Origin: a virus
Virus record (IMG/VR): IMGVR_UViG_3300033979_000092
Span: 1-21,601 of that record
Direction: 5' to 3' (one strand)
Length of the DNA stretch: 21,601 bases
Shown: positions 2,793-8,492 of the stretch, in pieces
How positions within the stretch are numbered: position 1 is the first letter of the stretch
How the letters are laid out: the number at the start of each line of letters is the position of its first letter
Program-made: the position numbers and the translations under genes
The notes under the pieces: model-generated
The model's database searches: none
What the model saw: the letters and a program-made list of their open reading frames with translations, nothing else
Told to the model about the DNA's origin: nothing

Positions 2793-4148
2793 TTATGTCC
2801 TCTTTGTGTTTCTAGCGTTGATGACGTGTTTAGCCCATGCAGCAGGGTTTCTGTAGCCTCTTTGGTGTCCTAGCGCAATCAGCTCTTGCAGCGACTGCGC
2901 ACTGCCTTGCTCGCGTTTGCGCTCGCGTGTGGTCAGCTCCTGCAGCTCACCCTCAACCACCTTTAGCTCACGGGTCTCCTGCGGGGCGAACACATGCCCG
3001 CAGCCTTGGCAGACCTGCGTGGCGCTCATGCTGGTGGTGAAGCATACCGGGCACACCTTGACGCTGGGGGCCTGCTCGCGGTCGCGTTTGCGTGCGCCGT
3101 CTAAGGTCCAGTCGCGCTCCTCTAGGTGGTGGCCAAGCCGCAGCGTATTGCCGACGTGGTCCAGCACGACAGCGGTCTTGCCGTGGCTTGGCCTCAGGCA
3201 TCGGCCGATCATTTGCAGGTGCAGGCCGACTGACTGCGTAGGCCTTAGCAGGATGCATCCTCCGACGCTTGGCACATCCACGCCTTCGCCAATCAGGCTG
3301 CAACTGGTCAGCACCTTGATCCGACCGGTTCCGAGCGCTTGCAACAGGTCCCTGCGCTGGTCGGTGGTCATGGTGCCGTCAATACTGGCGGCGGCGATGC
3401 CTTGCGACATGAATAGGGCAGCCACCGCCTCGGCATGTGCCACGCTGCAGCAGAACGCAATCGCAGTCTGGCCTGCTAGATGCTTGCGGTAGTGACTGCA
3501 GCAGTCGCCCATGATGGTGCCGACGCGCTGCTCGGCCTCTTTGGCGTCAAAGTCACCCATGCGCTTGCGTAGGCCGGTGGCATTGAACCCCGGTGGTGCC
3601 AGCACACGGGCACTGGCTAGGTAGCCGTTGTCGGTCAGCCATGCGGCTGATGGGCCTTGCACCATGGCATCGTAATGGTCACCAAGCCCACGACCGTCGC
3701 CTCGACATGGCGTTGCCGTCACGCCCAAGACATGCGCCTTATGGAAATGCTGCAGCACCGTGGACCACTGCCCGGCATTGGTGTGGTGCGCCTCATCGAC
3801 GACCAGAAGCTGGAAGAACTCCACCGGCAGCTTGTGCAGCCTGCGGGCAAGGGTCTGGACGCTGGCAACCTGCACCGCATGGCTTAGGTCCATGCTGCGG
3901 CCTGCTGCAATGCGGCCATGACTGACACCCATAGCCGTGAGGCTGCGGCTGGCCTGGTCCAGCAGCTCAGCGCGATGCACCAGGATGCAGACGCGGTTGC
4001 CCTTGCGGGCGGCGGACTGCGCGATGTAGCTAAAGCACACCGTCTTGCCGCCGCCGGTCGGCAGGACTGCCAGCACCGTTCGCTTGCCGAGCTGGTACTG
4101 CAGGCGGATGTCAGTGATGAGTTGCTGTTGGTAGGGGCGGAGGTTCAT
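2793..4148 (-). CDS. Superfamily 2 DEAH-box DNA helicase with C-terminal zinc finger (451 aa)
   Basis: The start is ATG 4148 (MNLRPYQQQLITDIR), which places the Q-motif-like YQ segment at the N-terminus as usual; an upstream TTG at 4172 is less likely. Motifs in order are PTGGGKT (Walker A, about 30-36), VVDEAHH (motif II, 118-121), GVTATP (motif III, about 143-147), GEGVDVP (motif V) and QMIGRCLRP (motif VI, 312-320), then DHVGNTLRLG, typical of phage SSL2/UvsW/RecQ-like helicases. A CPVC...CQGC zinc ribbon sits at about 366-383. The last 60 residues are charged and end in a small RNPAAWAKHVINAR unit. It would unwind branched DNA during replication or recombination using ATP. It is the first gene of the leftward arm and is transcribed from the divergent control region. 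Confidence 0.92.
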   Translation of the reverse strand: MNLRPYQQQLITDIRLQYQLGKRTVLAVLPTGGGKTVCFSYIAQSAARKGNRVCILVHRAELLDQASRSLTAMGVSHGRIAAGRSMDLSHAVQVASVQTLARRLHKLPVEFFQLLVVDEAHHTNAGQWSTVLQHFHKAHVLGVTATPCRGDGRGLGDHYDAMVQGPSAAWLTDNGYLASARVLAPPGFNATGLRKRMGDFDAKEAEQRVGTIMGDCCSHYRKHLAGQTAIAFCCSVAHAEAVAALFMSQGIAAASIDGTMTTDQRRDLLQALGTGRIKVLTSCSLIGEGVDVPSVGGCILLRPTQSVGLHLQMIGRCLRPSHGKTAVVLDHVGNTLRLGHHLEERDWTLDGARKRDREQAPSVKVCPVCFTTSMSATQVCQGCGHVFAPQETRELKVVEGELQELTTRERKREQGSAQSLQELIALGHQRGYRNPAAWAKHVINARNTKRT

Positions 4149-4216: not shown

Positions 4217-4381
4217 GTGCATCCCATCTCGGTTTTGTTCACGCCCGAGCAGGTCCGCTGGCTTGACGCCCGCCGATCCGCCGGCCTGTCCCGTAGCGCT
4301 GTTATCCGCCTTGTGGTAGATGAGGCCATGCGCCTGCACCGCAACGGCCTGTTGCCCGCTACCGGGCGCCGTGAACCATGA
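4217..4381 (+). CDS. Ribbon-helix-helix (CopG/Arc-like) DNA-binding protein (54 aa)
   Basis: From GTG 4217 the product reads MHPISVLFTPEQVRWLDARR, then SAGLSRSAVIRLVVDEAMRL and a short polar tail. A beta-strand with alternating residues (PISVLF), a first helix around EQVRWLDARR, a GLSRS turn and a second helix are the ribbon-helix-helix layout seen in small phage and plasmid repressors. Its stop overlaps the ATG of the primase-helicase gene by four bases (ATGA), good evidence that it is real and coupled. The frame stays open upstream to about 4128 and reads protein-like, but contains no ATG, GTG or TTG, so an N-terminal extension from a rare start cannot be excluded. It probably autoregulates the divergent region through the palindrome just upstream. 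Confidence 0.7.
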   Translation: MHPISVLFTPEQVRWLDARRSAGLSRSAVIRLVVDEAMRLHRNGLLPATGRREP

Positions 4382-6417
4382 CCAGTGACCTACTCGGGCA
4401 GCTAGCAGCGCTGCCGCGCCACTGGTCTTATGTGGCAGTTGACGGCCAGAAGCGTCCGTACATGGACAACTGGCAGAAAGACTTCATCACCCGCGCCAAG
4501 CTGGGGCAAGAACTCAGGTCTGGCCGCGCCAAGGCGATCGGCGTCTGCTGCGGCACGCCAAGCGGTGGCCTGCTGTTTGTGGACCACGATGGCAAGTCCG
4601 CCTCTGGGCTTTTTGACGACTGGGGCATCCCGGTCAGCTCCTTGCCGCCGTCGTGGACCGTCACCAGTGGCCGCGATGGGCGGTTTCAAATCATCTACCA
4701 AGTGCCCCAGCAGTACTGGGCAGAGATCCGCACTCGCAAATACAAGACCGGCGTTACCGACAGCGAAGGCAAGCCTGAGCAGGTTGAGCTGCGCTGGGAT
4801 GGTTGTCAGTCCATCGTTGCCGGTGCCCACCCGCTGACCAGTGGCTATAGCTGGGTGCCAGGGCGCTCGCCTGCCGACCTTGACATTGCCGAGGCACCGG
4901 CAGATTTGTTAGCACGCATGCTGCGACAGCCCGTGCAGGCGCCGTTGCCGTTGGTCAATGGTGGCACTGATGACACAGTGCGGGCGCGGTCGTTTCTCGA
5001 AGCGCTGCAGCCCAGCCGCGCTGACGATTATGACCAGTGGCTGGAAGTGGGTATGGCGCTGCACAGCGTTGATGATGCCCTGCTAGCGGATTGGATCACT
5101 TGGTCATCGCAGTCTTCCAAGTTCAAGCCCGGCGACTGCGAACACAAGTGGCGCGGCTTCAAGTCCGGTGGTGGCATCACCCTTGGCACCCTTGGTCAGC
5201 TAGCCAAGCAAGATGGCTGGCGCGGGCGGCAGCAACTGGAGCCGGTCCGCCGTGAGCGGCCTGCAAGCAAGCAGCCGCCGTCAGCGGTGAACCCGCAACT
5301 GCAGCCGATGAATGCCGCAGAGCTGCTCAACCTGCTGCGGCACGGAGACAGCGCTTACCGGTACAACACCTTCACGCAACGCATTGAGGTAGACGGCGCA
5401 CCAATCGAAGGCGCCGAGCGGTTTTACCTCACCCTGGCAGAGATGGGTTACAAGGTTTCCAAAGAGGTAGCCCTGGACTGCATCGTCCAGGTGGCCAATG
5501 AGTCGCCCTATGACCCGGTTGTCGAGTACCTCGACCGCGTTGCTGCCACGGTGGCACCTGCCTACATCGAAGCGCTGTCCACCGCCTACCTGCGGCCTGG
5601 TGATACCCCTGGCACCATTTACGACGAGATGCTTAAGCGCACTTTGATCGGTGCCGTCGCCCGTGCCTACAACCCTGGCTGCAAGCATGACTCCGCTTGC
5701 GTCATCATGGGCGATCAGGGCGCCTACAAGTCATCGTTTTGGGCGTGCCTTGGCCATGACTTTTTCAGTGATGCCTTGGGTGACATCAGCAGCAAAGACG
5801 ACCTGATGGTGCTCCACAGGTCATGGATTATGGAGTGGGCAGAACTTGACCATGTAACTAATCGCAAGCATGCAGGTCAGGTCAAAGCCTTCTTATCGCA
5901 GGCGGTTGATATGTTCCGCGTGCCATATGGTAAGGCAACTGAAGCATTCCCAAGGCGTGGAATCATCGTCGGTACAACTAACCGCACGACCGGCTTTTTA
6001 GTCGATGAAACTGGCAACCGCCGATTCTGGGTTATACCCACCACTAGGACCCAAGCAGACCAGATTGACACCGCCGCGCTATTGCTGGAACGCGATGCAA
6101 TATGGTCTGCTGCTGTTGCTGCATACCGTGCAGGTGAGACAAGTAGGCTGCCAATGCAGTATGAGCAGCAGTTAAGCAGCGAGAACGAATCATATGTGGT
6201 CGATAATCCTTGGCAAGCGGAAATTGAGGCGTGGTTGCGTAAGCACGGCGAGATTGATTTGACCACAGAGAAGTTACTTACTGAGGCCATTAAGAAGCCA
6301 GTAGAACGCCAGACCAAGGCGGACCAGATGCAGGTCGCGGATGTGCTCAAGCGGCTTGGGTACAAGCGGTACCGCAGCGGCAAAGGGTCAAGCAGGGCGT
6401 ACGTCTACCGGAAGTAG
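4378..6417 (+). CDS. Prim-Pol / PriCT / VapE-type primase-helicase (679 aa)
   Basis: Three domains are readable. Residues 1-180 are a bifunctional primase-polymerase (PF09250-like) with the catalytic LLFVDHDG (D69, D71) and a histidine in SIVAGAHP (H151). Residues about 203-281 are a PriCT segment (FLEAL...WLEVGMALHS...WRGFKSGGGITLGTL). Residues about 375-600 are a virulence-associated-E helicase/ATPase with Walker A GDQGAYKSS (445-453), Walker B WIMEWAELD (483-491), sensor GTTNRT (532-537) and the family signature GNRRFWVIP. The C-terminal tail is basic and resembles a small DNA-binding unit. The protein would make primers and unwind DNA at the phage origin. The candidate repeat-containing origin lies directly downstream. 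From about codon 480 on, codon choice looks more AT-rich than in the first half, suggesting a mosaic gene. Confidence 0.92.
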   Translation: MTSDLLGQLAALPRHWSYVAVDGQKRPYMDNWQKDFITRAKLGQELRSGRAKAIGVCCGTPSGGLLFVDHDGKSASGLFDDWGIPVSSLPPSWTVTSGRDGRFQIIYQVPQQYWAEIRTRKYKTGVTDSEGKPEQVELRWDGCQSIVAGAHPLTSGYSWVPGRSPADLDIAEAPADLLARMLRQPVQAPLPLVNGGTDDTVRARSFLEALQPSRADDYDQWLEVGMALHSVDDALLADWITWSSQSSKFKPGDCEHKWRGFKSGGGITLGTLGQLAKQDGWRGRQQLEPVRRERPASKQPPSAVNPQLQPMNAAELLNLLRHGDSAYRYNTFTQRIEVDGAPIEGAERFYLTLAEMGYKVSKEVALDCIVQVANESPYDPVVEYLDRVAATVAPAYIEALSTAYLRPGDTPGTIYDEMLKRTLIGAVARAYNPGCKHDSACVIMGDQGAYKSSFWACLGHDFFSDALGDISSKDDLMVLHRSWIMEWAELDHVTNRKHAGQVKAFLSQAVDMFRVPYGKATEAFPRRGIIVGTTNRTTGFLVDETGNRRFWVIPTTRTQADQIDTAALLLERDAIWSAAVAAYRAGETSRLPMQYEQQLSSENESYVVDNPWQAEIEAWLRKHGEIDLTTEKLLTEAIKKPVERQTKADQMQVADVLKRLGYKRYRSGKGSSRAYVYRK

Positions 6418-6692
6418 TACCCCACCTAGGTAGGACGGGTACCCCACCTCGGAATCGCCCAGATGCGCTGCGCTGCAGGCGATGTCGGGCAGGTGCCCCA
6501 CCTGTCCCACGTCCCACCTCGGTCTCAAACTTCCCTACGTTCCCCTACGCGTCTCTCTATTCCTTTATTTGTTTTGATATAAGTGGGGTTAGGTAGGGTA
6601 CGTGGGGAACTCCCGCTCTGTGACTGGGTTTTGCCGGTACCCCACCTCGTCCCACCTTGCCTTTAGGTGGGGAACTGCCTTACGGTGACTGG
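6418..6692 (+). other. Non-coding repeat cluster with AT-rich core: candidate replication origin or operator array
   Basis: TACCCCACCT occurs perfectly three times (6418-6427, 6440-6449, 6638-6647). The second and third copies share the longer GGTACCCCACCTCG. Near copies on the same strand are TGCCCCACCT (6494-6503), GTCCCACCT (6511-6519) and CGTCCCACCT (6648-6657). Inverted near copies are AAGTGGGGTT (6581-6590), AGGTAGGGTA (6591-6600) and AGGTGGGGAA (6665-6674). Between the two groups lies an AT-rich stretch at about 6559-6583. Direct repeats beside an easily melted core, just after the primase-helicase gene and before a ribbon-helix-helix gene, fit an iteron origin or a multi-site operator. 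No convincing gene is seen here. Confidence 0.55.
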
Positions 6693-6965
6693 ATGAAAGA
6701 AGTCAAAGTCCGTTTTGAGCCTGCAGACCTCATGGCGCTCGACCAGCAGGCCGCAGCGGCAGGCGTCAGCCGGGCGGAGTTGATCCGTAGCCGGGCGCTT
6801 GTTGCGAATTGCGACAGTGGGCTTACCGTGGCGCGTTATCACCGGCTAGTGTCTGACGCGCTAGCCAATGTGCGCGGGGACATCCCACGCCGCATGGTTG
6901 AGCAGCTTGTTGCTTATGTCATCACATGGATCTCATCAACATCTCAGCCAAGCAGCAACCCGTGA
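6693..6965 (+). CDS. Second ribbon-helix-helix DNA-binding protein (90 aa)
   Basis: ATG 6693 gives MKEVKVRFEPADLMALDQQA, continuing AAAGVSRAELIRSRAL. This is a CopG-like fold: a short strand (KEVKVRF), a helix, a GVSRAE turn and a second helix, with an extra helical C-terminal half of about 50 residues that may mediate oligomerisation. A GTG or TTG start upstream would run into the repeat cluster, so the ATG is preferred. It lies directly after the TACCCCACCT repeats, the usual place for a replication or copy-control protein that binds them. The next gene starts inside its end (40-base overlap). The fold is well supported; the binding site is inferred. Confidence 0.8.
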   Translation: MKEVKVRFEPADLMALDQQAAAAGVSRAELIRSRALVANCDSGLTVARYHRLVSDALANVRGDIPRRMVEQLVAYVITWISSTSQPSSNP

Positions 6966-7126
6966 TCAACCGGCTGCATGACACCATGGAGCACGCGCTT
7001 GCGTATGCCGCTGCCATCCGCGACAATGCTCAAGATGATCAGCAGCCAATCCCGGCTGAACTGGTCGCATCCTTCGCAGCCGATTACGACCGGTTGATTG
7101 CAATTCTCACCACCGCCGCCACATGA
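6926..7126 (+). CDS. Small helical hypothetical protein (66 aa)
   Basis: ATG 6926 gives a 66-residue protein rich in alanine and acidic residues, predicted helical by composition (INRLHDTMEHALAYAAAIRD, later LVASFAADYDRLIAILTTAA). No membrane segment or known motif is seen. It overlaps the ribbon-helix-helix gene by 40 bases upstream, and its stop overlaps the clamp gene start by four bases (ATGA). This tight packing argues that it is translated. Function unknown. A helper of the ribbon-helix-helix protein or the clamp is possible by position only. Confidence 0.65.
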   Translation: MDLINISAKQQPVINRLHDTMEHALAYAAAIRDNAQDDQQPIPAELVASFAADYDRLIAILTTAAT

Positions 7127-8168: not shown

Positions 8169-8492
8169 ATGGCGCGCAAGTGCAACAATACAGAGTCGGA
8201 ACAGCGCACAAATGCTGTCTATGACTTGCTCTTGCGCGCTCATAGTAGAAAGCAAATCATACAATTTGCCGCGGAAAACTGGGGGATAGGTGATCGTCAA
8301 GTTGATTCTTATATTTCCCGCGCTCGTGAGCTTTTGTCTGCTGATGCCAAGATGGAACGCTCTCAGTGGCTTGAGGCTGCGGTTGCACGAGCGATGGAAT
8401 ACGAGCGCCGCGCTGCCGAGAAGGATCAGCTCAACACTGCGCTGATTGCACTGGACAAGCAAGCCCGGCTGCTGCGGTTTGAGATGAGCTAG
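8169..8492 (+). CDS. Probable terminase small subunit (107 aa)
   Basis: The protein has an N-terminal helix-turn-helix-like segment (NAVYDLLLRAHSRKQIIQFA, then WGIGDRQVDSYISRARELL) followed by a long charged helix (ERSQWLEAAVARAMEYERRA) that could form the oligomerisation part of a ring. This matches small DNA-binding subunits that recognise the packaging site and load the large terminase. It comes five bases after the clamp gene, 1.3 kb before the large terminase, with a basic protein and two micro-genes between. Base composition is more AT-rich at its start than in the neighbours. The role follows from domain type and position. Alternatively it is a transcriptional regulator of the late genes. 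Confidence 0.7.
   Translation: MARKCNNTESEQRTNAVYDLLLRAHSRKQIIQFAAENWGIGDRQVDSYISRARELLSADAKMERSQWLEAAVARAMEYERRAAEKDQLNTALIALDKQARLLRFEMS

Follow-up and report, generated by a model that had tools for sequence, protein, structure and literature searches.

A putative iteron-type replication origin in cyanophages, with repeats whose spelling co-varies with the C-terminal domain of the adjacent primase-helicase

The Rep protein of SaPIs and Cch2 of SCCmec use a C-terminal domain to recognize iterons situated just downstream of their own genes (PMC7581432). The alpha protein of P4 is a primase-helicase whose C-terminal winged helix binds origin repeats, as stated in the study of pRN1, which proposed that PrimPol-SF3-winged-helix initiators, including that of phage BIP-1, assemble at a stem-loop and gave no bound motif for them (PMC4234260). 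In the PLE replicons, which are Vibrio satellites, the iterons vary in step with the DNA-binding domain of RepA, and the two are exchanged together as one module (PMC8263062).

The window analyzed here is a stretch of 21,601 nucleotides of viral DNA, for which the only phage-database match is Synechococcus phage S-LBS1. It contains a 275-bp gap (6418-6692) that constitutes the whole space between a primase-helicase gene and the gene for a 90-amino-acid ribbon-helix-helix (RHH) protein. Comparison with relatives suggests that this gap is very probably an iteron-type replication origin, recognized by the primase-helicase as its initiator through the C-terminal domain of that protein. The features of the region are as follows.

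4378-6417, plus strand: PrimPol-PriCT-2-VapE-like (SF3-type) primase-helicase, 679 aa, the proposed initiator (domains from Pfam)
6193-6414, plus strand: C-terminal domain (aa 606-679), predicted winged helix and proposed box reader, wing at about aa 667-674
6418-6427, plus strand: box 1, TACCCCACCT, beginning right behind the primase stop codon
6440-6449, plus strand: box 2, TACCCCACCT
6494-6503, plus strand: box 3, TGCCCCACCT
6510-6519, plus strand: box 4, CGTCCCACCT
6530-6557, minus strand (pyrimidine-rich on the plus strand): G-rich part of the purine tract, in a conserved arrangement of boxes, AT-rich purine tract and G-rich tract
6558-6582: AT-rich core, candidate DNA unwinding element, 84% A+T, 97% conserved in 22 relatives
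6581-6590, minus strand: box 5, AACCCCACTT, which opens a run of three inverted boxes in tandem beside the AT core
6591-6600, minus strand: box 6, TACCCTACCT, after a 10-bp step
6600-6609, minus strand: box 7, TTCCCCACGT, after a 9-bp step
6638-6647, plus strand: box 8, TACCCCACCT
6648-6657, plus strand: box 9, CGTCCCACCT, after a 10-bp step
6665-6674, minus strand: box 10, TTCCCCACCT, 18 bp before the RHH start codon
6693-6965, plus strand: 90-aa RHH protein (NikA/CopG-like), with NikA-like just above and RHH_1 just below the cut-off

As in iteron origins, several copies of a short direct repeat crowd together in the gap, and an AT-rich candidate unwinding region adjoins them. A sequence-only reading had noted three perfect copies, two of them within a shared 14-mer, and this is what is found: TACCCCACCT occurs exactly three times (6418-6427, 6440-6449, and 6638-6647; 0.02 expected per window, with none of 100 shuffles reaching three), and the 14-mer GGTACCCCACCTCG occurs twice (6438-6451 and 6636-6649). 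The same reading placed degenerate copies in both orientations, which is correct, and counted six, which is too few, as there are seven good copies and a weak one at 6428-6437. With at most one mismatch, CCCCACCT is present 10 times on the two strands of the gap, against a mean of 0.9 and a maximum of 5 in 1,000 dinucleotide shuffles. Over the whole window, boxes of this type with up to two mismatches number 19 against 12.5 expected; because this excess is weak, the signal lies in the clustering. The AT-rich core, anticipated at about 6559-6583, coincides with a 25-mer at 6558-6582 that only 0.12% of the window's 25-mers equal in A+T content, and the three inverted boxes, spaced at 9- to 10-bp steps, directly adjoin it. 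The flanking genes proposed earlier agree with the Pfam domains, the RHH gene starting at 6693. A search of Rfam gave no match.

Prim-Pol, PriCT_2, and VapE-like_dom all score above the Pfam cut-off in the 679-aa protein, and among solved chains the one closest in sequence is that of PriRep1 (7pds; E value of 1.7e-26 over residues 395 to 561). The AlphaFold2 model of residues 606 to 679 shows an H-H-H-E-E order of elements at medium confidence (mean pLDDT of 77.5), and Foldseek matched it to winged helix-turn-helix proteins and to SaPI PriRep1 (7pds), none of these matches being significant. The predicted topology of the domain is that of a winged helix. In one relative (L019:7329-7580), the array is separated from the following gene by a stand-alone ORF of 83 aa that resembles this domain, and similar ORFs are present in L012, L013, L182, and L206, at least three separate lineages being represented. 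These ORFs are possible origin regulators or blockers.

Relatives were collected as primase-helicase matches from four scans of a viral collection, which gave 153 loci after removal of duplicates; 152 of these have a recognizable primase C-terminal domain, and they fall into 47 clusters. The same gap architecture is present in all 152, the cultured phage S-LBS1 included. The majority of the loci are on metagenomic contigs, and apart from the host of S-LBS1 the hosts are therefore presumed. In most clusters the core follows a set order, with two to four tandem boxes at 8- to 10-bp steps, then the AT-rich purine tract, and last the G-rich tract. In 42 of the 47 clusters, the 40 nt that precede the purine tract on its 5′ side contain at least one box, compared with 33% for random placement. 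In S-LBS1 and its relatives the core has the opposite orientation to the gene with the arrangement intact, and it is therefore independent of the direction of neighboring transcription.

Conservation of the boxes in related phages, on which the sequence-only reading had made its proposal depend, is seen in 22 close relatives, where boxes are 97.3% and the AT core 97.1% conserved, against 87.2% for the spacers; none of 238 circular shifts of the box mask matches the conservation of the true mask. In five near-full-length group A relatives of 37 to 42 kb (G001 and G003 to G006), CCCCACCT occurs four to six times in the gap and nowhere else. The GC-skew switch that had been predicted did not appear consistently at the array in the eight long relatives examined, and a skew minimum near it is seen in S-LBS1 only, whose record is linearized there. 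The S-LBS1 record (L084) also carries a perfect 127-bp direct repeat (34261-34387 and 34515-34641) that copies part of its box array, lies at the record end, and is either a true duplication or an assembly artifact. The 73-kb contig of L039 (G010) has one primase-helicase gene at 3133 and a different one at 49529 and is probably two joined phages or a mixed assembly.

The spelling of the repeat differs among lineages, while the copies within one locus largely agree, as observed across the 152 relatives. Spellings include CCCCACCT, CCCTACCT, GTCCTACCT, GCCTAACCT, TGCCAACCT, and GTCCTATCT, among others, and boxes of differing spelling occupy equivalent places in other lineages. Examples are given below.

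Loci L029 and L049: ACCCTACCT
Loci L032 to L039 and L048: GTCCTACCT
Loci L040 to L042: TGCCCTACCT
S-LBS1: TGCCTAACCT
Locus L176: TTGCCAACC
Locus L213: GTCCTATCT

This concerted change within loci points to a single trans-acting reader. Because an unsupervised motif search over all loci was noisy, resolving 71 of the 152, spellings were compared through a box code defined by a CC-N-A-N-C frame that was picked by eye after viewing the sequences. Locus L182 falls outside this frame, its boxes downstream of the primase being TGCCTCTCC and TGCCCCTCC (CCTCTCC type), and it combines these off-frame boxes with a stand-alone winged-helix ORF.

The box code correlates with residues 606 to 679 when residues 1 to 600 are controlled for (partial r of 0.43, P ≤ 0.001, the permutation P values here and below being only partly corrected for shared ancestry), whereas the rest of the primase-helicase shows no residual correlation (−0.11) once the C terminus is controlled for. 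Nearest-neighbor prediction of the code is exact in a fraction of 0.67 with the C terminus, 0.54 to 0.56 with other segments, and 0.07 by chance. When alignment columns are ranked by how informative they are, 19 of the top 40 lie in residues 606 to 679, where 4.4 are expected, and the region beyond residue 656 is the strongest; K669, R673, and S667 of the wing are among these columns. In a test that includes the RHH protein, the partial correlation between box spelling and the primase C terminus is 0.20 (P = 0.001). Relative to group A, group B has C replaced by T in virtually all boxes, and the few C-terminal differences include K669 to A in its wing. The adjacent gene and this computed co-variation suggest that a matched cognate initiator is encoded alongside the repeats, as in iteron origins.

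Groups C and A (L035 and L032 versus the window and L025) differ unevenly along the region, with nucleotide identities of approximately 0.85 to 0.88 in the primase body, 0.74 to 0.76 in the C terminus, 0.55 to 0.59 in the gap, and 0.82 to 0.89 in the RHH gene. For L035 against the window, the corresponding values are 0.85, 0.74 (for a C-terminal stretch of 222 nt), 0.59, and 0.89. The pattern in this one lineage looks like an exchange of the C-terminal domain together with the gap, as a cassette between conserved flanks, which would not be the sole breakpoint because some of the C-versus-A pairs also diverge further downstream of the RHH gene. Across the relatives, the spelling of the repeats follows the C-terminal domain of the primase-helicase and not its other domains, the RHH protein, or a protein resembling a small terminase subunit (TerS).

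RHH proteins often bind tandem short repeats. The sequence-only reading had proposed either an iteron origin or an array to which an RHH repressor binds cooperatively, and its origin half is upheld by the conserved boxes and AT core, the spread over 47 clusters, and the confinement to the gap in group A. The other half found no support. The array lies directly upstream of the RHH gene, with box 10 just ahead of the start codon, as it would if RHH dimers bound the boxes cooperatively and repressed their own operon, but box spelling does not correlate independently with the RHH protein (partial r of 0.00, P = 0.47). The residues of this protein predicted to make contact, the triad E-K-R, assigned by eye from an alignment to Arc and CopG, are constant over nine box codes. 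Moreover, group C RHH proteins are 85 to 94% identical to that of the window although the boxes differ, the S-LBS1 clade keeps an inverted array with no RHH gene annotated beside it in S-LBS1, and a search for a sigma-70-like promoter found none. An operator array is very unlikely and was rejected, as the spelling does not track the RHH protein, which on this comparison is a neighbor not coupled to the boxes. The boxes could instead be a pac or cos site for the small terminase subunit, given that in S-LBS1 this subunit is encoded by the next gene across the record ends and that an ORF of the window at 8169, in a PHROG of unknown function, is TerS-like by our own reading. However, this protein is 30 to 99% identical among loci with the same boxes and 91% identical in one locus with different boxes, and the box code follows the primase C terminus instead; a packaging site was thus likewise rejected as extremely unlikely.

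That the primase-helicase assembles on a large hairpin, with the boxes secondary, is suggested by pRN1 and BIP-1, where the same protein architecture occurs with the origin at the same position downstream of the gene (PMC4234260), and by clear terminator-like hairpins in the gap of some relatives. It is nonetheless scarcely probable: the segments beside the tandem boxes are no more foldable than random control segments (mean z of −0.38 versus −0.20, for folded 55-nt segments), several hairpins there that are convincing by eye have z scores like those of the controls, and conservation sits in the boxes and AT core rather than in pairing spacers. No large conserved stem-loop downstream of the gene was recovered from these 55-nt segments. 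Plasmid iterons also work in copy control, and the C-terminal domain might read boxes that titrate or limit the initiator, in a partition or copy-control site that does not start replication. Stand-alone winged-helix ORFs adjoin the array in L012, L013, L019, L182, and L206, in keeping with such a role, but the AT-rich tract is fixed to the tandem boxes and therefore points to melting. Copy control in place of an origin has a very low probability, and the two roles could coexist.

The array, its conservation and confinement to the gap, the concerted box change, and the way in which the boxes co-vary with the C-terminal domain and seem to be exchanged with it as a cassette were all computed here. 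From them we infer that the protein binds the boxes directly, that helicase rings load, that melting and priming follow, and that the site is active as an origin. In an iteron origin of this kind, several copies of the primase-helicase would bind the boxes through their C-terminal winged-helix domains, and the tandem boxes at 8- to 10-bp steps would place the VapE/SF3 helicase rings over the AT-rich purine tract. The tract would melt under the rings, and the PrimPol domain would prime on the exposed strand, after which host enzymes and a sliding clamp encoded by the phage itself (gene at 7123) would carry out extension. Because the reader would be part of the initiator, the boxes and the C-terminal domain would evolve as a matched pair, which may give every phage lineage its own origin address. 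More tentatively, and with some doubt, these phages might represent a viral family with an open-ended origin address system, in which winged helix and iterons form an exchangeable specificity cassette with many dialects. The dialects would then probably keep co-infecting relatives or satellites off each other's origins, and the stand-alone domain copies would act as origin blockers or regulators.

Two further features of the window were observed. A 54-aa RHH-like ORF (4217-4378), without a match in Pfam or PHROGs, lies directly upstream of the primase-helicase gene and recalls orf56 before orf904 in pRN1. At about 2001-2500 the GC content falls to 36%, and the region at 2001-2790, beside a C5 cytosine methylase gene, includes a 199-aa ORF (2191-2790) with no PHROG match; it is possibly a recently acquired restriction-modification-like unit.

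The text of the S-LBS1 genome paper contains neither “origin of replication” nor “repeat” (PMC6157547), and a search of the open-licence literature for cyanophage, iteron, and origin of replication retrieved only the PLE paper (PMC8263062), so that earlier reports may exist elsewhere. The analysis provides a candidate origin, a named putative reader domain, and candidate specificity residues for widespread uncultured cyanophages and for the cultured S-LBS1. It also bears on PrimPol-helicase-winged-helix initiators, for which stem-loop assembly was suggested in pRN1 and an iteron motif is proposed here, and the many natural pairs of box and domain already supply the data from which a recognition code of winged helices could be worked out.

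Among the known systems, pRN1 ORF904 and Bordetella phage BIP-1 share with this locus the combination of PrimPol, SF3 helicase, and winged helix and an origin region just 3′ of the gene, and the small repressor gene orf56 of pRN1 has a counterpart in position in the 54-aa RHH-like ORF. They differ in that a large stem-loop without iterons was proposed there, whereas iterons and no conserved hairpin are found here. Satellite phage P4 alpha, compared from its description, is similar in having a primase-helicase, a C-terminal winged helix, and origin repeats, but its primase is of the Toprim type. PLE RepA resembles the proposed initiator in that its DNA-binding domain and iterons co-vary and are exchanged together, although it belongs to the RepA_N family and has neither helicase nor primase. 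SaPI Rep and SCCmec Cch2 are self-loading helicases that read short iterons directly 3′ of their own genes through a C-terminal domain; the present locus is similar in its helicase and short iterons and, as the co-variation suggests, probably in its C-terminal reader, and on the SaPI side PriRep1 (7pds) is the closest solved relative by sequence. As in these islands, the array of the candidate origin is positioned directly 3′ of the helicase gene. Here, in contrast, the element is a full-length phage of cyanobacterial hosts, PrimPol, PriCT-2, and VapE are joined in one protein, and the boxes are stepped at 8 to 10 bp beside a purine AT/G tract.
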